A stretch of DNA of 64,000 nucleotides, taken from the NCBI GenBank assembly GCA_964036195.1, contig OZ038460.1, positions 13,581,504 to 13,645,503 of the forward strand, in the 5' to 3' direction. Shown here piece after piece: positions 3,985 through 58,250 of this stretch. The notes beneath the pieces are model-generated. The model searched no databases, was not told where the DNA came from, and saw only the letters and a list, made by a program, of their open reading frames with translations. The position numbers and the translations under genes are program-made. Source of the DNA: Sphaerolaimus hirsutus (Eukaryota > Nematoda > Chromadorea > Monhysterida > Sphaerolaimidae). The number at the start of each line of letters is the position of its first letter. Within the stretch, counting starts at the first letter, position 1.

Positions 3985-4186
3985 ATGTAAAAAGCGCCAG
4001 ACTTTTGGCGCCAAGCGCCAAAAGCGCCATGGCGCTTTCTAGATCTTAGCGCCAAGCGCCAATGGCGCCACAGCAAAATAGCGCCAAGCGCCAAAAGCGC
4101 CATGGCGCTTTTCTAGACCGCGGCGCCAAGCGCCAATGGCGCCAGAGGATGTTGGCGCCAAGCGCCAATAGCGCCAGCGCCAAAAA
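3985..4186 (+). repeat. GCGCC-type dispersed element, copy 1
   Basis: Begins with TAGTGATGTAAAAAGCGCC and consists of nested GGCGCCAAGCGCC and AGCGCCATGGCGCT palindromes, ending in GCGCCAAAAAATTTTT. The same two ends recur in three other copies (4960-5157, 35168-35378, 37204-37409), so this is a defined dispersed element and not a simple microsatellite. The two ends are not inverted repeats of each other. Confidence 0.7.
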
Positions 4187-4499
4187 ATTTTTGTTTCCCA
4201 TAAAGCGCAGCCATGCTAATGCAGGGTTGTTTTTGTCATTTAAGACGCAGGATATAAGTCGTTTTTTTTCTTTATAGTGTCAGGATTGTTATATAGTTAG
4301 GACTTGGGAGTTTGGGTCTATGATGGCAAACCATCTAAAAAAAGTGTTCATATTTTTGGATATTGTGTGTCTGAGTTGAACGTGTCTATGTCCAGCATTT
4401 TTGTGTGCCTGACCTCCATTGGCTGGTGCTGACGCTCCCCTCCGATTTGGTGGGATACATTCATCTTCTGTGCGTACTATACAGGTCTATAGTCGGATT

Positions 4500-4798: not shown

Positions 4799-4959
4799 AT
4801 TATATGGGGCAAATGTTGAAAATGCCATTGACATGTTTGACAAAATAAGCAAGAAGAGGGATTTTTTTCCCTGGAATACACTCACAGTAGCACGTTTACT
4901 TATTTAAATTTTACACACAAGCTCTTTTTGTAGAAAATAATGAAATATTTGTTGAACTG

Positions 4960-5157
4960 CTTGGCGCTTTTTAAAACGCTAGCGCCAAGCGCCAATGGGG
5001 CCACGGCATCATAGCGCCAAGCGCCAAAAGCGCCATGGCGCTTTTCCGTAGCACAGCGCCAAGCGCCAATGGCGCCACAGGAAAAAGGCGCCAAAAGCGC
5101 CATGGCGCTTTTTGCTCTGGCGCTAGCGCCAGGCGCCAGCGCCATGGCGCTTTTATA
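4960..5157 (-). repeat. GCGCC-type dispersed element, copy 2 (inverted to copy 1)
   Basis: Reads on the minus strand: its TAGTGATATAAAAGCGCC end is at the right (about 5157) and its GGCGCTTTTTAAAACGC end at the left. Together with copy 1 it forms an inverted pair about 0.8 kb apart. Confidence 0.65.
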
Positions 5158-5412
5158 TCACTACTCCGGTTACTTTACACCTTGCACGCGTGGTTCCCGC
5201 TGGAAGTGCGCCAATGATGGTTAACGCGTGCGAGTTTCATAAAAAGATGACAAAAATGTTGTCGTTATAATGTTATTCATTAATATAATCACATCGATGA
5301 TTTTTTTTCATCTTTTTACGGAAATCGCATGATTTGATAATCATTGGCACGCTTCCAACACGAGACATAAATCAGTGCGAGGGCAGAGTATCATGTACGC
5401 CGGCTATAATGA
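5158..5412 (+). repeat. Dispersed repeat, inverted copy at 11962-12212
   Basis: The sequence from ACTCCGGTTACTTTACACC to CAGAGTATCATGTACGCCG recurs as its reverse complement at 11962-12212 with few changes, including the AT-rich centre. No coding capacity is seen, so it is probably a non-autonomous element. Confidence 0.6.
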
Positions 5413-5667: not shown

Positions 5668-8600
5668 CTACACTGCGTGCACAGCCTCGCCGCTGCTGTA
5701 CTGATAGGGTAGCACGTCGCCAGTCTCTTGCATGTCCTGCACCAGCGTGCCGTCCTGGTGCCACTCACACACCCTGGAAAATGTCAAGTGTCATGCAAAG
5801 TGTTAAGCGTCATATAAAATGCCCTGCAAAATGGCAAACAGTTTACCATTTCACGGGGCATTTTACATAACTTTTGACACCGCATGACATTTTACATAGT
5901 CCAGGGCATTCAACGTGGTGCTGGACTGGCACCTGGTCGACGTCACCGTCGGCGCCATCGACCACCGGTGCAGTCTTAGGTTGCCTACCACCGCCAGAGC
6001 CTTTTGACCGGTCGCAGAAGCTCGCCACGCAGCCGGCAGCCAGACAGCACGTCAACAGGAAGCCAGGGCCGACCAAAAGCAGCCCCCACTTTTGGTTATC
6101 GCTCCAGAACATGTCCAGCCAACCCCCTGAGTCACTGTCGCTGGGATTCTTGGTGGACGCCTGGTTTGGGGTTGCATGGCGTGGTGTGAGTCTTGTAGGT
6201 TGTATTCACTTGAAAGGTCAATTTTCTTGAGTAATTCCTACCCTCGAATTATTCCCCATCTTGAATATCTCTTACAATCTAATACCCCCCCCCCCCCGTG
6301 AGATGAGTTAGGAATCCTCTTGAATAAATCTCCCTTTCGGCATGTGATACATTTCAATTCGAACAAAACTGACATGTAATTTTGTTAATAGATAATATTT
6401 TGTGAAATGAGCTGATGAAACATTGAAACTTTTATGATCATTGACCTATCCAGGGGGCGTGGGCTGCAGTCCCCCCTTCCCTGGGTGAGACCTGAAACCC
6501 CCCTGGAAATGCAGCAATTGCAATGAGTTTGTTAGGGTTGTGTGAAATTTTGCGCGCGAATGCGCATGCTTTCCCTCGCACACGGAATTGTCAGCGGATT
6601 GGCCTTCGTAGACACTAAATTACAAAAAAGACACTCGAATCGAGTGCCTGTCGCTGTATATATTGCTGTATACGTGCTGTATTTAGGTATTTACATACCT
6701 ACCGTATTTACTCGAATAATTCCCCCGGGGAATTATTTTTTCGTCAGACATTTTGAGGGGGGATTATTCAAGTGGGGTAATAATTTTTTCCTTAAAATTT
6801 TCAAGCATGTATCTTTCGCACTATGTAGACATTTTGTCCTTGTCTTCGTTGCTAGTGCACATTCCATTGCACGGATGTGCTGTATTTATTTGCACTCGAT
6901 GAATCAAACCAGACAGCTATTTTGCTTGGTCTGACTTCATCGCTTATTCTTTTAAGATATTTATGTGCATAACCTTAATCCCATCATTTGGGGGGATTAT
7001 TCAAGTGGGGGCATTATTTTTCTTCACTCGTCCAACAGGGGGGGGGACTTTTCGTGCGGGGAAATTATTCAACTGGGGGAATTATTCGACTAAATACGGT
7101 AAATACATATACAACGGTTTCTGGCGCTAATGCAAACGCCAATGGCGCGATATGGTGGCGCCAACACCAAAAATTTTAGGGAGGCTTACCCCCACGTTCG
7201 CCGGGCGCTGTAAAAAAACAGCCCCCGTTCAAAAATCCTGGATACTTCCCTGCCCCTTGATTAAATCTCCTTGAATAAATCCCCCTTGAATAAACCCCCC
7301 TTGAATAAATCCAGCTGAATAGTCCCCCTTCAAAATAGTCTCATGAAAACATAATTTCCCAGGGGAATTATTCAATTAGATACGGTAATAACTTAGAGGG
7401 TAAGGATCGTCAGATTTTCTTACTTGGTCATTTCCTGTTTTGAACGTAACGTCGCTCGATGGGTTGGCTGCATCGTTAACATTCTTCTTCGTGATAGTGT
7501 CTGCTTCTTCATTATCGTTCGTGCCATCTTTATCCGGTTTTCCGCCATCTTCACTGCTGGGACCTGGTTTTCCGCCATCTTCACTGCTGGGACCTGGTTT
7601 TCCGCCATCTGCACTGCTGGGACCTGGTTTTCCGCCATCTTCACTGCTGGGACCTGGTTTTGCGCCATCTTCACTGCTGGGACCTGGTTTTCCGCCATCT
7701 GCACTGCTGGGACCTGGTTTTCCGCCATCTTCACTGCTGGGACCTGTTTCTCCGCCATCTTCACTGCTGGGACCTGGTTTTCCGCCATCTGCACTGCTGG
7801 GTAGGGTTGGGAATTTCAAAATTTTCGGTTCCGGTTCTTGGTTCTTGGTTCCAAAAGATTTCGGTTCGGGTATCGGTTCGGTTCTTAAACTCGGTTCCGG
7901 TTCGGTTCTTTCGGTTCTCAAATGATCAAAATTTCGGTTCCGGGTAATAAAATAACCGGGTATCGGGTAATAATCGGCTGAACAACAGAAAAACAATATA
8001 CCCAAGTTTACATGTGTAAGTACATTGGTTGGATATTTCATACTACAGGAGCATATCACAGCTTATTATTTCATAGTAGAATGCAGAAATCAGAGTTTTT
8101 ATAATAATACTGGTATTTTAAAAAGTGTAAAAGCAAACATATATGTTTTCTGTACTCGCGTACTTTCAAAAAGTACACGAGTAAATGAGTACTGGTATTT
8201 TTTTCTGGAAGAAACGTAAATGTATTTATGTAGTACGCTAGTGAGTACGCGTATTATTTTGAGTACAAACATAAATAACTTTTGCCAACTACGGTTAAAA
8301 CTGCCACAAAACCAAAGAAAACTACTACCAGTGATAATGTGTATACTGCAGCGACATTACACCTTACAATGAAATCTACCATATCCTATCTGAATAAACA
8401 AACATAAACACCTTCCCGGTCACGTCCGGCAGCCTATTTTTGATGACACTTGTGACATCCTATCTCCAGTTCTATGGTGTGCCAGAAGCTGAAACTTGGG
8501 GGAAATATTGACGGAACCCCCCTCTACTTCGCATAAATTTGGGGGGTCGCGGTGACCCCTTTAGAGGGTGGGTCGCCATAAGTACGAAAATTTTATTGGC

Positions 8601-11600
8601 TTTTCTGGTGTCCCTCACAGGTCCGGCACCCACTGATTTTTTAGCTGTGGGAGGGCTATAAATCTAAAATTTTGGGGATGTGTTACCAACACCCCTCCCC
8701 TACTATACACTATTCAAAAATGTGAGATTAATGTGAAAAATCTCTAAAATATTCTTTTATTTGCTAAAAAACATGACCACCCAATAGATGGATGACAAAT
8801 AATTCACTTTTTGGAACTTTTTTATTAGACACTTGAAAAGCTGGTTTACGATACTTTAAAGTGAAGGGGTTGATGATTAAAGTTATGTAAAGAACCACAC
8901 CTCTAAAACGCCTGCATTGCAAAATTTACTTGGGGGGAATTTCAAAGTGTAAATTTTGTAAATTTTTGTTCCTGAAATGATGTCATTATGGTGTCATAAA
9001 ATTCCCCCCAAGTAAATTTTGCAATGCAGGCATTTTAGAGGTATGGTTCTTTACATAACTTTAATCATCAAACCCTTACCTTTAAAGTATCGTAAACCAG
9101 CTCTTCAAGTGTCTAATAAAAAAGTTCCAAAAAGTGAATTATTTGTCATCCATCTATTGGGTGGTCATGTTTTTTTAATGTCATGTCAATGGGACAGTCG
9201 ATTTTTTCGATGAAACGAAATCGCTCGAAAAGAGACCCTGCGATGCGAGCGATTTTTCAACTTTTAAAATAAAATTAGTTTTGGTATGCATGGTACATTT
9301 TGCAATTTGGATACGTGTATCAAATTGCATCTTTAATCGCTTTATTTCACAATAATCGCGCATTTTCTTCACTACTGTGTTCATTTTTGAACCAGAAACC
9401 AGTGAAGGACCCAATGGGACAGTTTATTTTTTCAATGAAATGAAATTGAACCATGGCAACGGGGAATTTAGTGAGTCGCCGGAGGCTGCCCTGAGGGGGT
9501 ATAGTAGGGGAGGGTGTTGTCTATACTCCCCCCAAATTGCAGCTCTTTATCACCCCCACACCTGGAGGTACAGCATCCGAAGTGTCGCAAAATAAAGTGG
9601 GTGCCGGACCTGTGCGGGACACTCAAAAAGCCAAAAAAAACTTTGCGTATATGGCGACCCACCCTGTAGCGGGTTGCCGTGGCCTCCCCCATTGATGCAG
9701 CGTAGAGTGGGGTTGCAAGTATATATCCCCCCCCCATTTTCAGCTTTATACTCTGCCCGCAGCGGGAGTTAGGGCACCCCGAGTGAAATCAAAAATAGGG
9801 TGCCAGACCTGACCGGGAAGGTGTTTACATAAAAAAATTTCATCATATTTATCAAAGCAATTTGATAAATATTATGAAATTTTTGTATGTTTGTTCTTTT
9901 ATTCAGGTGGGATATGGTAGATTTCATTGTAAGGTGTAATGTCGCTGGAGTATATGTGAAATTACACGCTCCCGCGCAATCATTTTGCAAACAGATGAAT
10001 TTTGCAATTCTGAACACGCACCAAGATGTTCAGCTGCTGTTTAAAGGCTTTGATGTAGGTGTTGAAAAAACGCTGTTTAAAAACTTTAAGATTCCTAGAA
10101 AGTTTCGGTTCTTTCGGGTATTTACTTCGGTTCCGGGTATAAGTGCCGGTTCTCGGTTCCGGTTCGGTTCTCAAGCTCGGTTCCGGTTCTCGGTTCCAAA
10201 ATAGTGCTCGGTTCTCGGTTCGGTTCGGTTCGGGTCGGTTCGGTTCCCCAACCCTACTGCTGGGACCTGGTTTTCCGCCTTCTTCACTGCTGGGACCTGG
10301 TTTTCCGCCATCTTCACTGCTGGGACCTGGTTTTCCGCCATCTTCACTGCTGGGACCTGGTTTTCCGCCATCTTCACTGCTGGGACCTGGTTTTCCGCCA
10401 TCTTCACTGCTGGGACCTGGTTTCATGGGTCTCCAATGGTGGGGGTTTGTGGGGAGTAACACTTCCCAAACCGCCCATATATTGTCTATCCCGGAAGCCG
10501 CTACCTATTTATCAATCTATCCGGGAGACAAAATTTTTTGGCTATAATCCCCTAACCCCCCACTCCAAATCGGCTAGCTACGTACGTTTTATCGCAATTT
10601 ATGCAATGTTATCGGGCATTTTACATGACTTTTGACACTTTGCATGACATTTGACATTTTACAGGGTATTTCACAGGGCCTGGGACTGTCCCCTGGACGA
10701 TTTCTGAGCAATTATAACCCAATTTTCGCTCAAAATCTCCAAATTTTCATACCTTTTTATACATTTCAACGACCAAAATCATTATTTTATGTTCCTTACT
10801 GCTTATTTGCAGTTATTGTTAGTGATGTATGTTCTTGTATAACAATTTGAACTATTTTACACCTAGGTATTTTCGCGATTTGACTCCATTTTATTCCTTC
10901 TACGCCTTGAAAACCTATATATCGTACCCCGCGCATCCTCCCCCCCCCCCCACCACCACCCAAACGTTTTTCAGCTTTCTATACCTACGGAGGGTCGATT
11001 AATTTGCGATCTATCCAACCCCCCGGAAGGTCAAAATCTAGGAGACCCCCGCCTGGTTCGCTGCCAACAGTAGTGATGGTGTCTGTGTGATGTCGTCGAT
11101 CATTGCGCACACAATTTGAATTTTGGTGTAATTTTTGCATGCAACTTACAAGCTCCCCTCATTGGTATTTACCTTGTTTCATGTAAAGCTGATTTGAGAG
11201 AAAAAAATGTATCACGGAAATTACGACGCTACACTGATCCAGAGTTGGGTATTTACGTATTGGGTATTTACGTTTACTCTGAAATACTAGTAAAACTGCA
11301 TACAGTGTAAATACCGATGAGTATAATACTTTGATCGTACCAGTACCCATCTGTAAGCGTAGTTACCAGCAATTACCAGGAATTTCAGCTGGTTCAGAAG
11401 GGCGCCGTGTTGTGTTTGGTTTCCAGTCGGTTGTTTCAGCTGGTTGTTTATTCGGTTCCTGAGGCTCTGCTGGTCGAGTTGTGCCTGAAAATTGTTCCCA
11501 GGCGCCAATTCCGCAATCCGCAAAAGAGGAAGTGAAAACGAGGAGTGAAAAGTTAATTGAAAAGTTAAGTGAAATGGGAAGTGAAATGAGACGTGAAAGT

Positions 11601-13020
11601 CAAGTGAAAAAGTTTTTGAATAGGTTGACATTTTCAATTCCAAAATTCCGACGCATGCGAAACATCGGCAGCGGCACGTTTCCCAGTACGGTAAATCATG
11701 ATTTCCTTAATAAAATACCATCTTTTCTAAGTCAGAATTCATCCTTCACATTTTTTGTTACTTGCGGAATTGTGCTCAGTATCATCATTTTTCGAGTTAC
11801 TGGGACGTTGCATTGCGAGCGGCGCATAACGCCACCACTGAGTGGACGCGGGGCAAAGGTCCCCCACGCCCACACCTACGAATCTACTCCGTTTTGCACA
11901 AATACTGTTATCCATCAACATCAGACTTTGTGGACTTGAATGAGTGGGAATATTTACGTGTATACTCGGCGTACATGATACTCTGCCCTCGCAGTGATTT
12001 ATGTCTCGTGCTGGAAGCGTGCCAATGATTATTAAATCATGCGATTTCCGTAAAAAGCTTTAAAAAATTCATCGATGTGAATATTTTTATGAATAACATT
12101 ATAACAACAATCAATTTTATCATCTTTTTATGAAACTCGCACGCGTTAACCATCGTTGGCACACATCCAGCGGGAACCACGCGTGCAAGGTGTAAAGTAA
12201 CCGGAGTATACCTTAATTCCTCGAAATGCCCCCAGCTGGTCTATTTTTTCGCCACAAATTTTGAGGGGGGGGGGTAATTGGAGGATGGGGCTTATTCAAG
12301 GGGGGTATTGTTATTTAGTCAGAAAATTTCATGAAGGAGCATAATAAAGAATAGGCGAAAACACATCCAAAACTGAGAATAAATGAGACCAAACAAAATA
12401 TATTTGGATACACAAACCAGTATTATGTGTTGCTGCGATGCAATTTGGAAGCAATTCGATTCATTTTGTACATTGCATAAAAGAGACGGGCTATATTTTG
12501 AGGAGGTTTTTTACTCTGGTCGCTGAGACCGAGGGGGGTCAATTCAAGGGGGTGTTTTTGGGGGAAATACGGTATATATTGATATATGTATTGCTAGTGA
12601 ATATTGGTTCACCGTAGTTCGTTGAGTCCGTCACTTGCTCGCTGGTACTGGTGGACGCGCCTACATTGGCTTTCTTTTTGCTGGCGCTGTTTTGGTGTCG
12701 CGGCTGGGCTCCATTGGCGTGGCTTGGGATTGGCAACTGTCCGTCTGCCAACGTGGCCACCAGGGGGCAGTCCCAGACCCCGTAAAGTTGAATGTCAAAT
12801 GTCATGTGAAATGTCAATGAAAGCTAAAATATACAAGATTTTATTACTGAACTTGCATGACCTTTTATGACTGAAATTGGGGGGGGGTAAATACATTGTC
12901 ATGACAATTGATACTTTGCATGACATTTTACATGACATTTGACATATTACACTTGGCAGGGTCTGGGATTGGCACCAGTGCACACAGCGACAACTTCTGG
13001 AGCAAACTCGTCATCCGCAT
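5668..13020 (-). CDS. Gene X: single-pass membrane protein with 10-residue tandem repeats, broken by transposons
   Basis: Not recognised. Minus-strand exons, all in compatible phase: 13020-12976 (signal-peptide start MRMTSLLQKLSLCAL), 12736-12635 (Ser/Thr/Lys-rich), 11484-11377 (Gln/Asn-rich), a repeat exon ending at 7424 with donor CAA|GTAAGA, 6160-5933, and 5754-5668 (stop TAG). The repeat exon codes about 14 copies of GPSSEDGGKP, then an acidic Asn/Thr stretch. The next exon codes WLDMFWSDNQKWGLLL and a hydrophobic segment followed by Cys and basic residues. The tail is acidic and ends GEAVHAV. The layout is that of a type I membrane protein with a mucin-like outer part. Two hAT-like elements (7802-10256, 10424-11051) split the repeat exon; each element plus its duplicated target is a multiple of three, but stops inside them would end translation unless they are spliced out. 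The 5' edge of the repeat exon, and exons 1-3, are the least certain. Confidence 0.6.
5755..5932 (-). mobile_element. Foldback MITE that is exactly an intron of gene X (introner-like)
   Basis: A 178-bp palindromic element of the family with GGTGCCAGTCCCAG / CAGGGTCTGGGAC ends, flanked by the 5-bp direct repeat CCAGG (5936-5932 and 5758-5754 on the minus strand). The donor is CCAG|GTGCC, its T coming from the element. The acceptor is GGCACCAG|G, its AG coming from the target duplication. Removing it leaves one CCAGG and joins codons GAC CAG | GAC GGC in frame. Relatives lie at 10590-10697, 12765-12974, 29552-29710, 37410-37520, 42775-42950, 52640-52770 and 55275-55545. Confidence 0.7.
6702..7099. 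mobile_element. CCGTATTT foldback element, TA-flanked
   Basis: Ends CCGTATTTACTCGAATAA and TTATTCGACTAAATACGG, flanked by TA on both sides (6700-6701 and 7100-7101). The body is G/C-run rich with AATTATT blocks and has no ORF of note. TA duplication with inverted ends suggests a Tc1/mariner-type non-autonomous element. It lies in an intron of gene X. A second, partial copy ends at about 7386. Confidence 0.7.
7536..7801 (-). repeat. 30-bp coding minisatellite, distal block
   Basis: About 8 units of CACTGCTGGGACCTGGTTTT plus CCGCCATCTT (plus strand). Read on the minus strand in the frame of gene X, each unit codes GPSSEDGGKP; a GCA variant gives SAD in place of SED in several units. The unit length is a multiple of three, so the frame is kept. 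Confidence 0.9.
7802..10256. mobile_element. hAT-like element inside the coding minisatellite
   Basis: Starts TAGGGTTGGGAA and ends CCCCAACCCTA, with perfect 8-bp target duplications CTGCTGGG at 7794-7801 and 10257-10264. Both terminal regions are made of GGTTC-type short repeats (CGGTTCCGGTTCTCGGTT). No transposase frame was found, so it is non-autonomous. A TA-flanked long hairpin (8407-9825) is nested in it. A close relative with the same ends is at 61906-63752. Confidence 0.88.
8407..9825. mobile_element. Long-hairpin element with AACACCTTCCCGG ends
   Basis: Inverted ends AACACCTTCCCGGTCACGTC / GACCTGACCGGGAAGGTGTT, flanked by TA. The arms run inward for several hundred bases and meet near 8960-8990. 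A second full copy lies at 40241-41216 and a truncated one starts at 56578. No protein is encoded. Confidence 0.8.
10257..10423 (-). repeat. 30-bp coding minisatellite, proximal block
   Basis: About 5.5 units of the same array as at 7536-7801, separated from it only by the hAT-like element. On the minus strand it codes GPSSEDGGKP units and one SEEGG variant. Confidence 0.88.
10424..11051. mobile_element. hAT-like element with CAGGGGTCTC-type ends in the repeat exon
   Basis: Starts CATGGGTCTCC and ends GGAGACCCCCG. The flanking 8 bases are CCTGGTTT (10416-10423) and CCTGGTTC (11052-11059), 7 of 8 identical. A clean copy of the family with a perfect duplication is at 39736-40060. It carries CTATCTATCCCGG blocks and a piece of the GTCAAATGTCATG palindrome (about 10590-10697). 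Confidence 0.7.
11503..11776. repeat. K-family foldback (TTCCGCAAGTGG type)
   Basis: Left end GCGCCAATTCCGCAATCC after CCAGG (11498-11502); right end ACTTGCGGAATTG near 11763-11775. The inner arms are GTGAAAAG / CTTTTCAC type and degenerate. It lies just upstream (transcription sense) of the third exon of gene X. Confidence 0.45.
11962..12212 (-). repeat. Inverted copy of the 5158-5412 repeat
   Basis: Reverse complement of 5158-5412. It runs from ACTCGGCGTACATGATACTC to GGTGTAAAGTAACCGGAGTA, with an AT-rich centre in both copies. Confidence 0.6.
12213..12575. mobile_element. CCGTATTT foldback element, left end degenerate
   Basis: The right end GGGGGAAATACGG followed by TA matches the family. 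The left end (TTAATTCCTCGAAATGCCCC) has decayed. It lies in an intron of gene X. Confidence 0.5.
12765..12974. mobile_element. Foldback MITE in the signal-peptide region of gene X
   Basis: Same family as the 5755-5932 intron: GGGCAGTCCCAGACCC at the left, GGGTCTGGGATTGGCA at the right, with CCAGG/CCAGT at the edges. On the coding (minus) strand the target reads CTGG, so a GT donor (CTG|GTGCC) exists but no AG is formed at the far edge. The first usable AG is 24 bases further on, at GGACAG|TTG (12737). Without the element the signal-peptide codons run on in frame across the site. Confidence 0.55.
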
Positions 13021-24963: not shown

Positions 24964-25739
24964 GGACAGCCTGAACCCGTCGATGACGTGCCACCAGCAG
25001 TGCCTGCTGTCCGCGCTGCACGAGCAATTCAAGGGCAACGCGCCCAAGCTGCTGCCCACCGGCCTGATCGACCACACGCTGTCCAACGAACGCGAAATCG
25101 CGCAGTATTGCCAAGCGGCCATAGACGCCCAGCAATGCACGCACAACTGCACGATCACTATTGGTAAGTCGGCACATTTGAGTGCGCGCAAGCAGAAATC
25201 AGAATAGCAATGCTCTGTACGAATCGCAGGCCCGTCGCACTTCGCCAGCACGGTGCAGTTCATGTGCGTCGACGCCTACAGAGAGTTCATCCAGGGCACG
25301 CGCTGCGCAAAGGACTACTCGGCCATCATGACGCTCAACTGCCGCACTGAGTGCGGCTCCAACACCACGTACACCAACGCGCAGCTGAACTTGGAGATCG
25401 CCCAGCGCACCGACAACTTGCTGGCCAAGGCCGCAAACATGGCGGTCATTTGCGAATACGTACACTGCAACCTCAAGGCAAGCACTACCCGCCCCAAAAC
25501 CGACTCGCAATGTCAACCACACACTGGTAAAAACGCAGTGCCAGTCGAAAACGATGAAAACGCTGTGCGCGGAGAACGCGGGCGAATTCCTGCGGCGGTA
25601 CAACCAGTTGACGTTCAGCAACTTGCAGCAATTGGCGGAGCGGAACAACGACCCCTACTACCCCACGGAGTGCAAGCGGCTCGCCGCGCCCCTGGACATC
25701 GACGACAAGCCAGTGCGGTTGGTGGTTCATACTATTTAG
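24964..25739 (+). CDS. Cysteine-rich secreted-type protein, 3' exons
   Basis: Three exons: 24964-25163 (donor G|GTAAGT), 25230-25477 and 25539-25739 (stop TAG). Phases agree. The joined product has about 215 residues with some 14 cysteines in spaced pairs (MTCHQQC, CTHNC, NCRTEC, CEYVHC) and several NxT/S sites, as in an extracellular disulfide-bonded domain. The second intron is only 61 bp and uses a GC donor (AAG|GCAAGC) with acceptor GCAG. The start exon and any signal peptide lie upstream and were not found. The Cys spacing recalls nematode-type secreted Cys-rich families (such as chondroitin proteoglycan 4 or DUF19), but I cannot confirm a match. It stands alone, with repeats on both sides. 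Confidence 0.6.
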
Positions 25740-25769
25740 TAGTGGCTACACGTGGGGGTTACTATACTA

Positions 25770-26012
25770 TGCCTGGGGCCAGTTCCGCAAATTTAGAAGT
25801 GATAAGTAAAATGGCAAAAGCGAAGTGAATTGAGAAGTAAAAGCGAAGTGAATTGAGAAGTAAAATGGCAAAAGCGAACTGAATTGAGAAGTAAAATGGA
25901 AAAAGCGGAGATAAATTAATTTTTATTTTTATTTTTTACTTAGCTTTTGCCATTTCACTTCACTTTTGCCAATTTACGTCGCATTTGCCATTTTACGACT
26001 GGCACCAGATCG
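25770..26012. repeat. K-family foldback
   Basis: Left end GGCCAGTTCCGCAAATTT, right end GACTGGCACCAG; arms of GAAGTAAAATGGCAAAAGCG and its complement. It lies just downstream of the Cys-rich gene, perhaps in its 3' UTR. Confidence 0.55.
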
Positions 26013-35600: not shown

Positions 35601-38600
35601 GGCGGGGGATTATGGGTGATAATCCAGCCGTAAAAGTAAATTCGTAGAAAAGTATATTCCAAAACACATTTTGAAATGCACACTTTAGGAATCAAACTCC
35701 GATTTTGTATGGAAATTCGCGCAATTATTACCGACACCCTTGACTAATTAATGTTTTTTGCACAATCACAATCAAATTTCAACGTCTTTTTCAATTTTCG
35801 TTGTCCTTCAATTTTTAATAAACAAATTTCAATGTAATTAATCAATCTTTATGTAGGGTGGAAATCTGATGTAAACAGGTGCACCGACTAGTTCACATTG
35901 AAGTTCGTCCGGCATCACACGCAAGTCCATTACGCATGTGGCTATTTACTGGCGGAATTGCACGCGTTTGATGAACACCGCGCCGACCCCTCGCATGTGA
36001 ATACGTAAAACAGACAAAATGCTATAGGCCGCACGACACGATTGCTATAGGCCGCACATACGGTACTCAACAGATGCCAAACGAAGCCAGAATAATAACT
36101 CCACAACGGCAAAAAATGGGCCTACACGCACTAGTTTTCAACGACATTTTATGTCAACTGGTTTTCAACCCAATTCAAGGCTTGATGACACGCTGACGAA
36201 CAGCGTTCAAATGCATAGTGTTGCATTATATTGCAAATGAAGTTGTATTGTTGCTGTAGTATGAAGTACAAGCATGAAGTACCTACCATATTTTCTCGAA
36301 ATACACCCAGGGTTTTTTTATTTTATGGGTATTATTTATTTTTTCAGGGTGCAAATTTTGAGGGGAGTTTCGAGGGGGGCTTATTCGGGGGGAATTTTTA
36401 TGAAGGGTCATAGTGAAGTATAGTTTTTTAATTAATTGTCCCAAAACGTAATTAATTGACCCAAAACGTAATTAATTGACCAAATAGGATATATTTTGGT
36501 CATATTATCATAGATCGTTCTATAAACAAGGCCATGTTAAGCTGCGATGTAAATTCGCAGCTATAAATGTATCATGTTCATTGGATACATGATCTACCGT
36601 AAATCCTCGAATAAGTCCCGGGGAGTTTTTTTTTCGTGAGAATATTTTGAGGGGGGGGGGGGTTAATCGAGGGGGGGGGGTTATTCGAGGGGGGGCAGTT
36701 ATTTTTTCGTCAGAATATTTGGTGCATAATTACATACATTGCCGCTATAAGTAAAACATTATGTTGTGTTTACATTGCATACGCTGCACTGCCTTTGCAT
36801 TCGATGAACCAGACCATGGCTTTTTGGTCTGTCTGGCTTCATCGAAATGATTTTTAATGTGACACGACTTACTTGCATCGATCATAGGGGGGAGTTATTC
36901 GAGGGGGGAGTTGTTTTTTCCTCACACTCGCAAGAGGGGGGACTTATTCGAGGGGGGAGACATGTTCGAGGGGGAGGACTTATTCGAGGATTTACGGTTC
37001 CTTATTCCGGACGGGGTGTATTTCGAGGGGGGGGGGGGGGGGGGTTAATTGAAAGGGGGGTATTTCGAGGAAGTATGGTATATGTGTATACAACACTGGA
37101 TAGTGTTACTTGTCAGCAAGCTTTGAAATGAAATGGGAACCTGTTGACAAACAAATAGATAGCACTGCATTTGCATCGCTGTAACTTTATGCAGCAAATT
37201 TTTTTGGCGCTGGCGCTATTGGCGCTTGGCGCCATCATCCCCGTGCGCCATTGGCGCTTGGCGCCATGGTCTAGTAAAGCGCCATGGCGCTTTTAACGCT
37301 TGGCGCTATTTTGCTGTGGCGCCATTGGCGCTTGGCGCTCGCATGTCAAAAGCGCCATGGCGCTTTCGGCGCTTGGCGCCAAAAGTCTGGCGCTTTTTAC
37401 ATCACTAGGTACATTGCATTCGACTTTGCTTTGCATGACATTTTACATCTTACAGGGTCTGGAAGTGGCCCCTGGAACTATGTAGGAATTATGCACCATG
37501 TAACATTCCCAGACCCTATAGAATGCCGTGAAAAAATGTAAAAAAATTGCACGAGTTTTTACACATTTTTACCTGACATAATACATTGTTTGGGATAGCC
37601 CGCAGGTTCCCGCGACCACCATATTTTACAAACCTGGGCCTCGAACAGATCAGGAAGTTGTGTTCGAGAGCCAGACACTTGCATTTGTGCATTTGGCGCA
37701 GACTTCCACGTTTCCTTTGACCAGATCTCCAACATATCTGAGGAAGGAAATTATCGATTAAATTGATTTTGACAAGTTTTCAATACACGAAACTGACCAT
37801 TTGTGTACTGATTCGTTATTAGGAGAACCAATCTTATGCGAACTGCGTTGCAGAATTCCATAAGCGGTTGTACATGCCTCGCTTTGAATTCCTGTCCTAG
37901 CAGCGTGCTTATCGTTGATCTATGCACATCAAAAGAAATTTCAAACAGTGACAGAAGATCAAAGCAACCGACAAAATTAATCTAGCGACCTTATCTTCCT
38001 CAGAACTTGCGACAAATGCGCTATCTCACTCTGGCCAGTCAACTCGGAACGCGGCCACTTGACAAATTTGCCCGCGTACTCGTCGCTGACCGCGTTTGGC
38101 ACAGAGCCAGGCACCGCCGCGTGCATCATCAGCCACGAAGCCAGATTCACCGTTTGCACCAGCAGATCCTGAAGGTCAGTTTTATGCGGGCACGTTTTTA
38201 GATACGGATGTGCAGACAGGACAGAGTGGTCGGAAAGACAGACTATCAATGTGGTCGGAAATAGGATGGAACTTTTTTTCAACTAATCGTAAAAAAATCA
38301 GTGTGGAAGCTGTCTTAAAAAAATCAGAATGCAAAATTTCTGGTAGACATGCACTAGGTGCACGTTAGCAATTGATTTTTTTTCCAACCCTAGTCGGAAA
38401 ATTTACCTCAATTTCCTCTTCTCTGTGGAGATTTGGCTTTGCACTCAGACTGCCGTCTACATAAGCCTGGGCCAATTTGTACAGCGACTGCAACTTTGAA
38501 CCTAATATAGACAGCGTCAAGTCGACAAATTCAAATCTTTGCGGAGTTTCTGAGCCTGATGAAAAGAAGTCATGTTGTTAAATATATAGTTTTCAGTACA

Positions 38601-41600: not shown

Positions 41601-43876
41601 TGCGTGAATTGAAATGGTTGAAATTTGATGGTTGAACTGGAATGGTGTAAGTTGGATGGGTGAATTGGGATGGATGAAATTGTGTGGTTGAAATGGGATG
41701 GTTGAAATGGGATGGTTGAAATGGGACGGTTGAAATGGGATGTTGAAATTGGATGGGAGTAGGGTTGGAAAAACAACGTTTTTTTAACGCCATGTTTAAA
41801 AAAAACAACTTTTTTTTTAAAACTTTTTTTTTAAAGTTCCCATATATGTTCCTGGGTCAACATGTATAGGTATATCAGACAAGTGACAATACTCTGTGAT
41901 GTTATACATGGCCGTATAATGGCTGTGGAGCCATGGGATAGCATTATAAGCGGTGATTTGTGTCAAAAATGTCCATTTTTTGTCGACATGTTCATATATC
42001 GCCTTATAGTCGAATGTTCGTGACTTCAAGTGAAGTTTGGCACGGAATGGTGATCAATCAAGGTTATAAAAGAAGTTTGTTACTTTGGGAGTGATGTTAC
42101 ACACTGTGGAGGTACATGGAAGCACATTACCGGAATATTATATACTACAGCAACATATGACGCTTATTTACCCATGGATGCATAGAAATGGATGCTTTGA
42201 TTCTAAAAATGCCACAAAACCAAAAATGCCACAAAATCAATGAAAACAACCACCAATGTCAATTTGTGTGTGAAATTGCGCGCTTGTTTAAAACGTTTAA
42301 AAAGTCTCGGACCTCGTGTTTTTTTTTTAAAACAACGTTTTTTTTTAATAAAACGTTTAAAAAAACATCGGCCAACCCTAAATGGGAAAATTGTTATGGT
42401 TGGAATTGAATGGTTGAAATGGATCGCCAACTTGGTTATCTTTGTCAAAACTACGATAGCACAACAATGACACAAACAGCGCTTTTTTGACAAACCTAGC
42501 ATTTGAATACTTTTCCAGAAGCAACGCGGCTGGCGAAAAGTTTGATTGTTTCAAACTGCTGGATCCATACACCGCAGATACACTGGGATCGTTAGCTGGT
42601 TTCATTTTTGTGCCTTTGTTTATTCGCAAAGGATCATCCTCGTGTAGGTCGGAGGTACTTTGCTCTGCCGAAATCGCTTGCCGTCCGGGCACAGTCAATG
42701 TTTCGTCCACCCACACGGCGCTCTCCTGTTAAATTGAGCAAATTTCGAAACAATTACCGGAGCAATTTAACGCAGACCCTGTAAATGTCATGCAAAGTGT
42801 CAAAAGTCATGTAAAATTCCCGGAAAATGGCAAACCTTGCCCTGCAAAATGGCAACTCGGTTGCCATTTTACTGGGAATTTTACATGACTTTTGACACTT
42901 TGAACATTGTCAAACATGACATTTTACAGGATATGGGACAGGCACGTCTGGGACTCCGCAAGTGGAGAAGTAAAATGGCAAGTGAATTGGCAGAACGGAA
43001 GTAAAAGAAGTAGTTTCTCTTCGCTTTTGCCATTTCACTTCTCAATTCACTGCGCTTTTGCCATTTTACTTCTCACTTCTCCAGTTGCGGAACTGGCCCT
43101 GGTGATTTATCATTAACGAACTAGTTAACTAGTCATTAACTAGTTCTTCTCTTTAAAGTGGGAATTGAAACCAAGCTACTCGAAACAAATTCACACAAAA
43201 ACCCATCTATCACCTGCGTGGGTCCCACCGCGACACGAATCACCCTGAACTGTACATCGCAGGCGCCCCTGCCGCCCTTCCTGGTGATGACGAGCACGTC
43301 GCCCGCGCCGGACGGGGCGTTGCCCACGCGCGCCACCACCTTGTGCGACGACACCCAGCGCGCCGACACAGTGCAGTCGGTGCAGCAGATGAATACGGCT
43401 GGGAAGTGGGGGGGAGTTGAAGGGTTTGAGTGTGATGTGGGGCAGTTTGTTCAGTTTGTTGGACTTAATTGCGTGGGGAATGAGACATGCGAAAAATGTA
43501 AAAGCTCCAGGGGCAAGTGAAGTGAAGTCAAGTTCCGCAAGTGAAGAAGTACAAAAGCATTTGATAAGTGTGAAGTAAAAAGTTAAAAGCAAAATGAGAA
43601 GTGAAATAGGAAATAAAAAGACAATAACGAAGTCAAATGATAAGTGAAATAATGAGATGTAAAAAATTACTAAACTTCTCCACTTGCGGAATTGAGAGCT
43701 CCCTCATTCGCACTTCCTTCAAGGATAAAAACAACACGAATAGACAACAAACCTATTAGATCCTGCTGACTCAGTCCCAAGTTCTCTCCGCGTATAGTGA
43801 CCTGAGTGCCCGGGGCGCCCTCTTTAGGCGACAGGCCAGTCACCACCGGCTTGTTGGGGCGCTCGTCCGCGGCCAT
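32678..43876 (-). CDS. EXOC2: Exocyst complex component 2 (Sec5), complete
   Basis: Twenty exons on the minus strand: 43876-43753, 43398-43214, 42725-42496, 41477-41261, 39688-39521, 39442-39361, 39047-38945, 38861-38749, 38687-38631, 38555-38407, 38168-37990, 37907-37798, 37737-37634, 35073-34910, 34434-34182, 33886-33763, 33294-33092, 33027-32966, 32898-32848, 32774-32678. They sum to 2775 bases, 924 codons plus stop, the length of human EXOC2. Residues about 8-100 form the IPT/TIG domain that binds the GTPase RalA ([20 protein letters not shown]). Exon 5 has the core [14 protein letters not shown] and exon 6 [16 protein letters not shown], both matching the family (FKFLFNLPLNIERN, YEKAKSLFGKTEV). 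Sec5 is part of the octameric complex that tethers secretory vesicles to the plasma membrane. Introns carry many foldback and hAT-like elements, yet every splice phase agrees and no exon is broken. ERO1 starts 1.86 kb away, head to head. Confidence 0.96.
33930..34146. mobile_element. Foldback element, GGGCC-ACACAC family (EXOC2 intron 15)
   Basis: Inverted ends GGCCAACACACACTAGTTGAC / GTCAACTAGCGTGCGCGGGCC. The interior is AT-rich with GTTGACAT words. Confidence 0.75.
34489..34822. mobile_element. CCGTATAT foldback element (EXOC2 intron 14)
   Basis: Ends CCGTATATCCTCGATTAA / TTATTCGAGGATGCACGG, flanked by TA (34487-34488, 34823-34824). Confidence 0.75.
35168..35378 (+). repeat. GCGCC-type dispersed element, copy 3 (EXOC2 intron 13)
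   Basis: Begins TTAGTGATGTAAAAGCGCC and ends GCGCTAGCGTTTTATAAAGC-GCC-AAAAAAA, as in copies 1 and 2. It forms an inverted pair with copy 4 in the same intron. Confidence 0.68.
35410..35438. repeat. Perfect GC-rich hairpin
   Basis: GACGCGCGTCTG and CAGACGCGCGTC are perfect 12-base arms around a 5-base loop, in EXOC2 intron 13 just past GCGCC-type copy 3. Each half also contains the self-complementary GACGCGCGTC. Confidence 0.7.
36286..37078. mobile_element. CCATATTT/CCGTATTT foldback with a second copy nested inside (EXOC2 intron 13)
   Basis: Outer ends CCATATTTTCTCGAAATA / TATTTCGAGGAAGTATGG, flanked by TA (36284-36285, 37079-37080). Nested inside at 36597-36997 is another element with CCGTAAATCCTCGAATAAG / CTTATTCGAGGATTTACGG ends. 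A three-fold 20-base repeat around ACGTAATTAATTGACC lies at about 36425-36485. Confidence 0.75.
37204..37409 (-). repeat. GCGCC-type dispersed element, copy 4 (EXOC2 intron 13)
   Basis: Minus-strand orientation: left end AAATTTTTTTGGCGCTGGCG, right end GGCGCTTTTTACATCACTA. Confidence 0.68.
39736..40060. mobile_element. hAT-like element, CAGGGGTCTC type (EXOC2 intron 4)
   Basis: Inverted ends CAGGGGTCTC / GAGACCCCTG with perfect 8-bp target duplications GGTGAAAT (39728-39735, 40061-40068). The interior has G- and C-runs and CTATCTATCTATC blocks. It lies 48 bases upstream of EXOC2 exon 5 in transcription sense. Confidence 0.85.
40241..41216. mobile_element. Long-hairpin element with AACACCTTCCCGG ends (EXOC2 intron 4)
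   Basis: A 976-bp near-palindrome: AACACCTTCCCGGTCACGTC at the left and its complement at the right, flanked by TA (40239-40240, 41217-41218). Arms of nearly 490 bases meet near 40660-40680. Being intronic, it would be transcribed as a long hairpin. Confidence 0.85.
41490..41759. repeat. ATGGTTGAA minisatellite (EXOC2 intron 3)
   Basis: Irregular tandem units of 11-16 bases built on GATGGTTGAAATGG. The array resumes at 42381-42425 after a hAT-like element, so one array was split. Confidence 0.75.
41760..42380. mobile_element. hAT-like element in the ATGGTTGAA array (EXOC2 intron 3)
   Basis: Starts TAGGGTTGGAAAAAC and ends GGCCAACCCTA. Flanking octamers GATGGGAG and AATGGGAA match at 6 of 8 bases. 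The interior has A- and T-runs (AAACGTTTTTTT) at both ends and a unique core shared, in inverted order, with the copy at 46062-46733. Confidence 0.75.
42775..43105. repeat. Two abutting palindromes (EXOC2 intron 2)
   Basis: First a GTCATGTAAAAT palindrome (about 42775-42950, centre near 42850), related to the intron-forming MITE. Then, directly adjoining, a K-family palindrome (about 42950-43105, CTCCGCAAGTGGAGAAG to CTTCTCCAGTTGCGG). Confidence 0.6.
43510..43697. repeat. K-family foldback (EXOC2 intron 1)
   Basis: GTTCCGCAAGTGAAGAAGT and CTTCTCCACTTGCGGAATT are inverted; the interior is GAAGT/ACTTC-rich. Confidence 0.55.
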
Positions 43877-45732
43877 ATTGCAATTACAACGGATACACTC
43901 GTTCTGTAGGTCCGGAAAGTGGCTAAAAGTGAGGAAGACTCCGATTGGGATGTAGACTGTATATTTATATGGTTTCAATGTTGTTTTGATGGTGAGTGAA
44001 TACCACATCAACTTTGATGGATAAAAACAGTCTCGGTACTTGAAATTATACCCCTGATGACGATGAGAAATCGATTTCGCAATTTGGAAATGTTCCAAAA
44101 CGAAAATAAAAGAAATTCCTTTTCATCAAGGAATGTTAACGTAAACAGACATTTATAAATTTGTGCCCCCATATTTCTGCCACTTATCAGCATGAATAGG
44201 ACACAACTTTTATTTCGACTCTTGCGAGGACGTTGCGTTATGTCGGAAGTGGTGTCATTCAATTGTTTCTTTTCTTATGTTACGTATTGTTTCTAAGATT
44301 ACGTACACTGACTATTTCCAGCTAAAAATCGCCGGTCTTGCGCAATCAAAATTAATTTCACTCGGATGTCTGAATCGATTCAGCTTGATTTGAAGCTTCA
44401 ATCTGTATCCAAGCAGCGGCCAATGATGTTTGCATGCGGCTCGCTTGAATTACCTCGTTTCCCCGCGCTTTATTATTACAAAGTGTCGAGTATCGCGCCG
44501 CTTTTGTTTGCTGTAAGATAATATCGCTGGGGGAGTTTCACATTCGATAGTCAGAATGGAGATTTTATCATTCGGTTTTTTTTTGCTCGAAACAAAGGTT
44601 TTCCGGCGTCACGGCCAGAACGGAATTGTTTAGCTATATTTTTACGAACCTTTTTTAAGCATCTGTAGTAATAGGGTTCCAGATAAATGACTTCGTGTAG
44701 TTCTGATAGATGTTCAAAAGAAGTTTCAGGTTAATCAAATCTTGCTCCTGGTGTGCCTGGTGTTTGCAGCATTAATTTTTCATCCACATGCATTTTTAGA
44801 ACACAAGACTGGCTGTAAAATGTAGCCTCAATTTTTCCCACCTCTATCTAGTCAGGAATTCCCAAATAGCCTTCAGCCTCTTGTAGCAAGTATTTATGGT
44901 ACATGTGGTAAATACATATTATGTACACGTATCTCTTGAAGTGGCAATGGCATTCAAACAGCACACGCGCTAAATATCCGCGCATCGCGGCCAGACTTGC
45001 GACATGAATTATTAGTGCTCAAGGGTTTTGTAGATTTATGACTACTGAGTGCTTAGATAAATAGGATCCGTAAAAATCCCGTCAAAAATGTGTCAAAATT
45101 TGATTGTCTTCAGGTGTTTCTGTTCTCTCAGACGTTTGTTAAGCACAGTTATATTTACCATTTTGGGAATGGGCACACACGCTAGTTGACATCACAAATT
45201 CGTGTCAACTCAATGTCAACTAAGAACACACAACACATTTAAAAAGAACCATCAAACAATGAAAATTTTATGCCATGGTGTAAAATTAGCTATATACTCT
45301 ATCAGATAGGAAAATTGAAATCCATATTCACCAAAATTGAGTTGATACGACTTCAGTTGACATCCAGCGTGTGCGGCGCCAATGATCTGTGCATTATCTT
45401 CCCCCAACCGGACGCGCCGCGCGACAAGTCTGGCAGGAAGTTCCATGCGCAGTCGCGCCTCTCCACTAGGAAGTAGGAGGGTCAGCTGAATATGAACCCC
45501 CAAGGGCCATTGTCGCGCGCGGCCGTGAACTCCACGGCCGCCGATCGTGAAAGATAAATTTATCGCCCTGTTTTATTTAGCCGCGTCTAAATATGCCACT
45601 ATTCGCGTTCACTATTGTCGACTTCACACCAATTTCTTGTCTCAAATCAGCATGTATTCATGCACACCTCTCAACATCCAGCGCAGGAGGATTTATCGAC
45701 ACGGGAAGTGGCAGCGCGACTGCGAAATCAGA
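43877..45732. other. Divergent intergenic region between EXOC2 and ERO1
   Basis: It must contain both promoters. No TATA box or other core element is clear. CpG-rich sequence lies at about 45400-45550. A GGGCC-ACACAC-family foldback (about 45172-45385: GGGCACACACGCTAGTTGAC to CAGTTGACATCCAGCGTGTG) lies in the ERO1-proximal half. The rest, 44300-45170, shows nothing I can name. Confidence 0.5.
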
Positions 45733-48700
45733 ATGCGGCCGACTATTGGCAGCGTAATTCGGCTGTTGGCGTGCGGCGCGGCCGTGTGCGCGCTGGTGGC
45801 CAGGGCGCAAATGCCTTCCGGTCCGTTCTGCCGCCCACGGTCATGTAGTGTTGGAAAAGTGCCAAGGTGCTGCCGCTGAATTGCCCTGTGATTGAATTAC
45901 ACTTGCGAGTGAATTCTTTCAATGCGGCATTTCACTGCTGATGTTGTTTGTTCGGCGCCAGCGCTGCGCCAAAAGCGGCTGCAGCGGCACGGTGCTTTCG
46001 GCACCGGTACGAGCAGTGTGGCACTTTTCCCATCACCACAGCCATGTTAATCGGTGGTGACTAGGGTTGGCCGATGTTTTTTTTTAAACGTTTTTTAAAA
46101 AAAAACAACGTTTTTTAAAAAAAAAAACAACGTTTTTTATGACGTCCGAAATGTTTGTTTTTAAAAAAAACATCGGCGGAAATTTTTAGTACTAAGCACT
46201 AGGTATTTTGCAAAATTTTTGCGCGCAAGCGCGCAATTTCACACACAAATTGACATTGGTGGTTGTTTTCATTGGTTTTGTTGCATTTTTAGTATCAAAA
46301 CATCCATTTCTATGCGCTACCATGGGTGAAAAAGCCGACATATGTCGCTGTAATATATAATATTGAGGTAATGTGCTTCCATGTACCTCCACAGTGTGTA
46401 ACTTCACTCCCAAAGTAACAACCTCCTTTTATAACCTTGTTTGATCACCATTCCGTGCCAAACTTTACCTGAAGTCACGAACATTCGACTATAAGGCGAT
46501 ATACGAACGATATGTCGACGAAAAATGGATATTTTTGACACAAATCACCACTTATAATGCTATCCCATGGCTCCACAGCCATTATATGGTCATATTTAAC
46601 ATCACAGAGTATTGCCAGTGTCTGATATACCTATATATGTTGACACTAGGTCATATCTACGAGCTTTTAAAAAAAAACGTTTTTTTTTTAAAAAAAACAT
46701 CGAGTTAAAAAAAACGTTTTTTTTCCAACCCTAGTGGTGACAGGTATTTGATGCGGGACTTTCTCTGCCCTTGCAGGCCGGTCGTGCTTCTGCAAGCTGT
46801 CTGAGAACGTGGACGAGTGCGCGTGCACCGTCGACTCGGTGGACACGTTCAACAATGACAACGTGTTCCCCTTGCTGCACGAGCTGCTGCAGCGGGACTT
46901 CTTCCGGTTTTACAAAGTGCGTTTGCTGTTCCTTGACATGGTGGCGGCCCGCACACTAGCTGAGACATGTGTGTCAACTCAGATTTTGGTCTCACTTGTC
47001 GCACAGCGATCTCTTGCACATGTGGCGAGATTGAAAAATGAATATTACGGCAAGTGTATTGGAAGATCGCTCTGCGACACGTGAAGCCGAAATCTAAGTT
47101 GACACACGTGTCAACTGGTCTGTGGGCCGCCAACAAGCAAACCTAGTCACAGCGCCGTGCCACTCACCATTCGCACCCCCAGGTAAACATGGACCGCCCG
47201 TGCCCCTTCTGGCCGTCGGACGCGCAGTGCGGCAGCGACGCGTGCGGCATCGAGCACTGCGACGACGAGGTGCCGGCCGGCATCAAGACCGCCCCCAGGT
47301 CACTGCTGCACTGCGGCGACGGGCGGCAGGGTGCCGCAGTGCCGTCGGATGGAAATGAACTCGATCCGATCGACCGGCGGCTCAGTGAGGAGACGCAGCG
47401 GCAGCTGGAGGATTGGGACGCGTATGACGATGCGGAGGACACTTTCTGTGATGTGGATGGTTGGTTTGCTTGTTTTTTGTTGTGCTTACTGCATTGGCCC
47501 CACACACGCTAGTTGACATCGACACCAAATGTCAACTGTTTCCATTCCTAATTCAAAGATTACATTTTAACGTCGTTCATCCACGCGTATGCAAGCTTTG
47601 AATCGGGATCGGCACCAGTTGACATTTGGTGTCGATGTCAACTAGCGTGTGTGGGCCCATTAGACACGGCTTCAGTACGGGATATCTTAGCTGAACATTT
47701 GGAGCAAATATCGTGAAACTGAGGTTGAAAACACATTTGTAAATACTGAACTTATCACTGATACCTAAATGCTATTAGGGTCTTGTAATCCACAAATAAC
47801 TCCTCAAAAAACCTGGACATTTTAACCTGGCGATCCCTCTCATCTAGCCACAGAGTAGTTAAAACTCTACCAATCCTTGTTTCAACCTCAAATTGAACAC
47901 ACAGATGACTCGAGCGACAGCCATTATGTCGATTTGAACAAGAACCCCGAACGTTACACCGGCTATAAGGGTAACAGCGCTGCCAGAGTTTGGCAGGCGA
48001 TTTACATGGAAAACTGCTTCAAACCTGATCCAAAGTTTGACACAAACTTTCTGCTACACCCGTCCATCACCGGTGGGTATTTTCATTGTTTTTGTGTGAC
48101 AGGGGGCATTTTTGGCTGTGGTCATATTTTTGAATTATCATATATCAACAGATATTTACAAAATCAATGATAAAGTTGATCTCTAAGGAGATCAAATTGT
48201 TTTTAAAAATAAATTTGAATTTTGATCTGAAAAACTAAAAAAACTGAAATTATAAACAGCTAAAATTACCCCCGGGTGCTGGCTATATTTCAGATCCATC
48301 GCAAATTAATGGACAGTGTTCATTGTCACCTTGACTAACTCGCCGCACAATTGCGGCTTAGAATTAGCCATGTTTTATTTAATATCACCGAGTGCTACGA
48401 CACTTGCATGCTCTTTCTAGGCACCAACCTTCAAGGTAACGCCCGTGTGCTTCTGGTGTAGCTTGATGTGTGTTTTGGTTTGGCTAGAACCCGATGCACA
48501 AGTTTACCCGGTGCACAAGTAGCAATATCCGGTGAAAATGTAAACCCCGGTGCTTAGGTACGGCGCCGTATTTGAGAATCATATTGAAACCCTGCGAACT
48601 CCCCTTCAAAACAACAAGTATACACTATCACATGAATAGTGATGGAATGGCGCCATTTGTGGGCGCCAAAGTACGCCGCACCATGGCGCCCTTTTACTAC

Positions 48701-57698: not shown

Positions 57699-57898
57699 NN
57701 NNNNNNNNNNNNNNNNNNNNNNNNNNNNNNNNNNNNNNNNNNNNNNNNNNNNNNNNNNNNNNNNNNNNNNNNNNNNNNNNNNNNNNNNNNNNNNNNNNNN
57801 NNNNNNNNNNNNNNNNNNNNNNNNNNNNNNNNNNNNNNNNNNNNNNNNNNNNNNNNNNNNNNNNNNNNNNNNNNNNNNNNNNNNNNNNNNNNNNNNNN
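57699..57898. other. Assembly gap (200 N)
   Basis: Exactly 200 unknown bases, a scaffold spacer length. It separates the nested repeats from the second ERO1 copy, so the join across it rests on scaffolding alone. Confidence 0.98.
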
Positions 57899-58250
57899 CA
57901 AATTTTTCCTCAGCCCCGGGCGGCTTCGGGACGGGCACGTGGCAACGCAACGTGGACATGTTCAAGTGGCGCTTCGCCTCGGAAACGACCGGCGGCGAGG
58001 GGCCGCAGCGGCTCAAAAACCTCTATCTGGTCTACTTGATGGAGCTGCGCGCGCTGCACAAGGTCGCCCCGTATCTCAGGGAGGAGATGTTCTATACTGG
58101 CGATGAGAATGAGGATAGAGAGACTAGGCAATTGGTGCATACCATTTTGAAGGCTATCAAAGGTTTTCCCGACCATTTTGATGAGTCTGCCATGTTTCAG
58201 GTATTTTGTTGAGAAATATCGCAATTCATAGTTCACATTGAACGCCCAGG

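Follow-up and report, generated by a model that had tools for sequence, protein, structure and literature searches.

A foldback DNA transposon family predicted to act as an introner in the nematode Sphaerolaimus hirsutus

Examining a 64,000-nucleotide stretch of the genome of the nematode Sphaerolaimus hirsutus (assembly GCA_964036195.1, contig OZ038460.1, positions 13,581,504 to 13,645,503, hereafter the window), we identified on its minus strand a foldback element that interrupts a coding-like frame and whose precise removal restores this frame. The scaffold that contains the window measures 23.9 Mb; the genome totals 348 Mb, has 11 large scaffolds and ends in an AT-rich contig of 14,754 bases, of which 600 were read and which may be the mitochondrion. 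We interpret the foldback element as a member of a non-autonomous foldback DNA transposon family that acts as an introner, with its splicing predicted, and give this reading a probability of about 0.84. The family is very common and, as read from the genomic sequence, appears often within coding exons. In 30 of the 32 copies that could be tested, the borders restore the frame, and eight copies lie within conserved domains; the introns are predicted here from DNA. The unusual part of the family would be the large share of insertions that present GT at their upstream border and TG at their downstream border.

In the window (Table 1), the original prediction had equated a palindromic stretch of 178 bases with exactly one intron, joined at 5933/5754 and restoring the reading frame when removed. 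These coordinates proved right, the sense strand reading ..GACCAG^GTGCC...CACCAG^GAC.. at the borders and, over a longer span, ..GTCGACCAG^GTGCCAGTCCAGC...GTGGCACCAG^GACGGC.., with a GT-AG pair at the borders of the predicted intron. The foldback architecture was confirmed by two 40-nt arms, 78% complementary and joining at the centre of the element, and by a single-strand DNA fold of positions 5750-5940 at -49.1 kcal/mol, against -23.9 +/- 3.3 kcal/mol for shuffled sequences (n = 200; z -7.6). The frames upstream and downstream of the element were both coding-like and, as had been claimed, shared the same phase after removal of the 178 nt. A search of the protein collection returned no homologue of the host protein and a search of the genome matched only the protein itself, so that the window case is not settled by homology; codon usage and phase are what would carry this single case.

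The relatives expected elsewhere in the window were present, including one full-length copy, and a genome-wide search for the element, which the original prediction had called for, returned 13,376 matches to a 27-nt terminal inverted repeat (TIR) pattern over the 348 Mb (6,701 + 6,675, with at most three mismatches), the reversed control returning none. Two distinguishable TIRs were recognised, end A (GGTGCCAGTCCC) and end B (GGGGGCAGTCCC). Individual copies were studied in two sets. Set A, chosen regardless of gene content, drew on 60 of 100 exact-match places listed from among the 13,376 matches, with about 600 bases on each side, and retained 52 distinct copies once 9 of the 60 loci, in which no second TIR was recognised, had been dropped and one exact duplicate removed. 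Set B, a biased set, gathered 53 copies, drawn from the window, the top matches to its element and the sequence around these. One end A and one end B delimited 43 of the 52 copies of set A, and 7 of the 52 carried end A twice, which places the copy number somewhat under the number of TIR matches; the family probably counts over ten thousand copies. Seven pairs of near-identical neighbouring loci (L064/L065, L073/L074, L076/L077, L089/L090, L096/L097, L104/L105 and L108/L110) share their element site, as compared by eye.

Set A copies were 126-312 nt long (median 170 nt over 52 copies, the scan having admitted 120-320 nt only), and in 51 of the 52 the first and last 8 nt paired in a predicted RNA fold, at a median of -108.8 kcal/mol. 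The family thereby shows the short length, TIRs and high copy number that mark miniature inverted-repeat transposable elements (MITEs), as well as the TIRs at both ends and the short duplication, of sequence CWG (W for A or T), that mark DNA transposons. MITEs of cut-and-paste DNA transposons are short, palindromic and of high copy number, and some create 3-bp duplications; the build is the same here, with CWG as the duplication. The TIR pattern had no exact match in viral_contigs, which was searched for a viral source. Identity to the nearest other copy had a median of 88% (50 of the 52 sampled copies having a match), which does not establish the "active" source of new introns that had been proposed; the introner-like part of that proposal is well supported at the sequence level by the coding copies, frames, domains, paralogues and polarity described below.

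The motif CCAGG, taken in the original prediction for the target duplication and for the origin of both splice sites, does stand at both edges of the element (as CCTGG on the plus strand, at 5754-5758 and 5932-5936). The target duplication is nevertheless the 3-bp CWG, with CCAGG as the preferred context around it. Across 87 oriented copies, C-W-G flanked both sides, with an identical W on both sides in 56; the next base outward was C on the left in only 58 and G on the right in only 46, and the GG and CC of the element itself were nearly fixed, on which grounds a 5-bp CCAGG duplication was rejected. In 3 of 11 listed exceptions, the inner base varied jointly with the outer base, which fits a 3-bp duplication. 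With CWG as the duplication, the donor GT belongs to end A of the element, contrary to the original prediction, and the acceptor AG comes from the downstream duplication, in agreement with it.

To what extent copies interrupt coding sequence was assessed with a codon-usage model (1,146 training codons, from stretches judged coding on homology or visual inspection and in many cases flanking the studied copies), the left and right flank frames being picked independently and the borders being set from the CWG duplications alone. Coding-like flanks on the same strand were obtained for 32 of 105 copies; precise removal left 30 of them in phase and 2 out of phase (p 1e-12 against 1/3), and loci outside the training of the codon model gave 16 in phase and 2 not. 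Set A was enriched in copies lying in phase within coding-like sequence (13/52, against 146 of 1,740 CWG sites of the window tested in the same manner; p 3e-4). When the second member of six near-identical pairs was left out of set A, the remaining 46 copies comprised 12 in phase, 2 out of phase, 6 with best frames on opposite strands and 26 with weak flanks.

Thirty joined, coding-looking frames were searched against Pfam in three batches of 10, and in 8 of them a domain that reached the curated cut-off extended over the junction (3/10, 5/10 and 0/10 by batch; Table 1). Two further matches, M23 in L042 and a kinase in L044, spanned the junction with scores under the cut-off, and a weak Piwi match in L088 was left uncounted since the joined peptide had the wrong left frame. 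In alignments to solved structures, made with the element removed from the query, the joined sequences ran gapless across the junction against SLC23A1, galanin receptor 2 and synaptotagmin-1; the P5A query had no match among solved structures. As a separate observation, L049 apparently holds one galanin-receptor-like gene with three copies of the element (4109-4299, 4919-5107 and 6198-6388), whose 3' ends are AG, TG and GG.

Among the several SLC23 (xanthine/uracil permease) family genes of the genome, the C1 gene (L066) carries an element that breaks the domain near model position 286-290. No interruption occurs there in five exons of SLC23 paralogues: the one on C9 covers 258-345, and the other four, of which C15 has three and C3 one, cover about 266-309 or more; some paralogue matches contain one stop codon, and the four exons that were read (C9, two C15, C3) are open through the position. 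Compared by eye, INALLGGGLGLTT (C1, element removed) aligns gapless with INATIGGGMSLTT and INAAIGGGMSLTT. A paralogue without the element, as intron gain would leave, was thus found in the one gene tested, and because the paralogue exons run through the position, this insertion, a copy with a CTG duplication, would most simply be a derived gain.

The downstream border of the coding copies is more heterogeneous than the upstream one. In 38 coding copies, namely the 30 of the phase test and 8 added by hand (the pair L096/L097 included), the borders were GT-AG (22), GC-AG (1), GT-TG (10), GT-CG (2), GT-GG (2) and GG-TG (1). A sense W of T yields a 3' end in TG, which concerns about a quarter of the coding copies (10/38), and the eight domain-spanning copies end in AG twice, TG five times and GG once. 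The splicing of the genome at large does not appear obviously unusual, since four introns of the ERO1 gene in the window, with borders read by eye from the conserved protein, are GT-AG. T upstream combined with A downstream was found in 11 oriented copies and the reverse in 2 (p 0.022, a value made too small by two near-identical pairs among the 11, L073/L074 and L104/L105), which is no more than a hint that AG may be gained after insertion. Either TG would be accepted as a 3' end in this genome, or the TG copies would use other splice sites.

The second of these options, in which the coding copies are spliced and the CTG ones resort to other sites, such as a GC donor placed three bases inward (GGT^GCCAGT) and used with an internal TTTTACAG acceptor that adds 7 residues in frame, appears unlikely to us, though it is the best placed of the alternatives. 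Published introners can add codons, according to the consulted sections of a 2022 survey (PMC9860276), the GC-donor/TTTTACAG pair is an option in 4 of the 10 GT..TG copies (L066, L002, L005 at 195 and L033), and some in-frame GT/GC-AG pair lies within the scanned range in 9 of these 10. The tenth, L038, has no in-frame canonical option in that range, and two copies with T on both sides align gapless to SLC23A1 and galanin receptor 2, the former also to the SLC23 paralogues, so that seven added residues would be an oddity there; the aligned form is nonetheless one from which the element was removed by the analyst, and not an mRNA.

Orientation bears on the choice between splicing and removal at the DNA level. 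Among the in-phase copies with distinguishable ends, the GT-bearing end A lies upstream in the gene sense in 25 of 26 (p 8e-7; 24 of 25 before border refinement), the sole exception being L054, which a rival plus-strand frame would make conform and which we counted as an exception. A subset independent of the codon model, formed by copies with a Pfam-supported strand (a few matches being below cut-off), gave end A upstream in 15 of 15. This polarity, most simply explained by selection for a GT on the upstream side, favours RNA splicing over DNA excision. Orientation-free excision had been suspected from the CTG copies in conserved genes and was dropped as the lead once the polarity emerged. 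A precise elimination during development, like that of ciliate internal eliminated sequences, would need no splice sites, and could account for frames restored by removal whether the duplication is CAG or CTG, for copies with T on both sides that lack AG at the precise border, and for elements flanked by direct repeats. We nevertheless hold it for highly improbable: such excision is indifferent to orientation and splice sites, whereas 25 of 26 copies are polarised, and the assembled DNA, whichever tissue it came from, contains the elements.

Several points weigh against the introner reading. Restoration of phase by itself indicates insertion into exons and not splicing, and the spliced removal is a prediction from DNA. 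The codon model was partly trained on the flanks on which it was tested; 7 of the 105 copies had their best frames on opposite strands and 66 had weak flanks. The window, whose CWG sites served as the reference for set A, may misrepresent the coding density of the genome. In 22 of the 30 joined frames, no Pfam domain above the cut-off crossed the junction. A simple GT-AG introner would predict more AG in coding copies, and AG was not clearly commoner there (23/38, against 33/62 other oriented copies; p 0.54), these two sets overlapping, as the 62 still hold some copies taken as coding by eye or by Pfam that the codon model scored as weak; genome-wide, AG follows GGTCTGGGACTGCCCCC in 989 places and TG does so in 732, a modest excess of AG at the 3' end. 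Finally, the other full-length copy in the window is not a clear fit to the polarity rule: on the minus strand one can read a signal-peptide-like frame, with GT..TG borders, that could belong with the host gene of the window element, and the codon model leans weakly towards the plus strand (scores 7.7 and 3.7), which would leave the upstream end of this copy without GT.

A further alternative sees plain MITE insertions in or close to genes, with coding copies that are broken alleles, pseudogenes or frames open by chance and a window case that is coincidental. It would agree with the 31 of 52 copies in set A, the unbiased one, for which the codon model did not give coding-like flanks on both sides, and with the absence of homologues of the window host in both searches. 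It is the least probable alternative in view of the eight conserved domains that are split yet intact on both sides, the polarity of the coding copies and a nearest-copy identity that argues against many insertions being brand new.

As the sequences show, the trinucleotide CWG is the insertion target of the family and is duplicated on insertion. Under the introner reading, with end A upstream, the first two bases of the element would serve as donor (CWG^GTGCC) and the downstream CWG copy as acceptor, and splicing would take out the element with one duplication, leaving the mRNA unchanged. Copies with end B upstream would lack GT and be purged, which would explain the polarity. Insertion at CAG would create a normal GT-AG intron and insertion at CTG a GT..TG one; the latter would apparently still be removed precisely, perhaps as the very strong hairpin joins both ends, and some copies may gain AG through mutation of the downstream duplication. 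It is conceivable that the hairpin is a structural aid to the choice of the 3' end. One transposon family may have seeded perhaps thousands of introns that need a GT donor and no AG acceptor, CTG insertions being spliced precisely as GT..TG, with the 3' end defined by the hairpin and AG maturing through mutation of the downstream copy. This broader proposal is tentative, and we would place it slightly below even odds. If true, a single genome would preserve the conversion of transposons into introns, arrested at various stages.

Table 1. Features of the window (window coordinates) and conserved domains extending across the junction in copies of the family
Feature	Position	Strand	Details
Foldback element (MITE-like)	5757-5933	-	GG..CC, 177 nt; GGTGCC TIR at both ends of the window copy
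Predicted intron	5755-5932	-	178 nt; GT (5932-5931) ... AG (5756-5755); from sequence and frame restoration
Upstream copy of the 3-bp target duplication	5933-5935	-	CAG in sense, exonic
Downstream copy of the 3-bp target duplication	5755-5757	-	CAG in sense; source of the acceptor AG
Open frame upstream of the element	5933-6205	-	..FWSDNQKWGLLLVGPGFLLTCCLAAGCVASFCDRSK..GDVDQ; codon log-odds 18.7; 5' boundary provisional
Downstream frame and stop	5668-5754	-	DGTLVQDMQETGDVLPYQYSSGEAVHAV, starts DGTLVQDM..; codon log-odds 16.1
Second full-length family copy	12763-12976	uncertain	coding interruption also uncertain
C2 domain across junction (L024)			3' end AG
P5A-ATPase 2TM (two-helix) domain across junction (L027)			3' end TG
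DOP1 TPR across junction (L021)			3' end AG
Amino-acid transporter (Aa_trans) across junction (L039)			3' end TG
7tm_1 across junction (L049, element at 4919)			3' end TG
Srx-type 7TM across junction (L038)			3' end TG
C2H2 finger (zf-C2H2_4) across junction (L041)			3' end GG
Xanthine/uracil permease (Xan_ur_permease) across junction (L066)			3' end TG

Beyond this family, the window contains the ERO1 gene on the plus strand (47190-50668 and 57676-58212, by Pfam), with an extra copy of one of its exons beyond a gap of 200 N, which may reflect a duplication or an unmerged haplotype. Inverted-repeat-like stretches surround 'agttgacatcgacacc' at 47490-47660, within an ERO1 intron, and are possibly another foldback family, as judged by eye. 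An exon with a TIG domain (Pfam; EXOC2-like by eye) lies on the minus strand at 43670-44122, and a cysteine-rich frame at 25208-25828 has a chondroitin-proteoglycan-4-like match under the Pfam cut-off. Minisatellites at 7376-8062 and 9980-10504 leave several frames open (GKPGPSSEDG repeats on the minus strand), and palindromic GGCGC-type repeat clusters were noted by eye at about 4990-5160 and 37350-37480.

Introners, or introner-like elements, of DNA-transposon type were reportedly described by Huff et al. in 2016. In the part of the 2022 survey available to us (PMC9860276), introners bear TIRs and duplications, with splice sites recruited from either, occur in only two groups among animals and land plants, both of them animals, and have family sizes that range from 5 to over 2,000 copies. 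The family described here resembles these DNA-transposon introners in its repeats coinciding with (here predicted) introns, its TIRs, its short duplications, the provision of one splice site by the duplication and an excess in genes; it differs in that one TIR pattern has 13,376 matches (counted over all places and not only in genes) and in that about a quarter of the coding copies would end in TG. The introner elements of the dinoflagellate Amoebophrya, as presented in the accessible text of PMC7789003, likewise have hairpin-forming inverted repeats, direct repeats at exon borders and non-GT-AG ends; their ends are highly variable and backed by RNA-seq, whereas in our animal the 5' end is almost always GT, it is mainly the 3' end that varies, and the introns are predicted from DNA. 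The larvacean Fritillaria borealis is, in the excerpted text of PMC13326754, another animal in which many introns are not GT/AG and the U2-type spliceosome removes them; fewer than 10% of its introns follow GT/AG, whereas the four ERO1 introns here are GT-AG and the deviation concerns the 3' end of the family. The family was not recognised in the introner literature from 2023 on, as represented by titles and the beginnings of abstracts, and may already be described.

The origin of new introns is a long-standing question, and animal introners appear in few groups in the consulted part of the survey (PMC9860276). A very common element in coding exons, inserting at CAG about as often as at CTG, would offer a natural experiment on the needs of the spliceosome, in which the element and its hairpin are identical and the acceptor is one base apart. 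The family has the look of a large-scale source of new introns, of which many would carry an unusual end signal.
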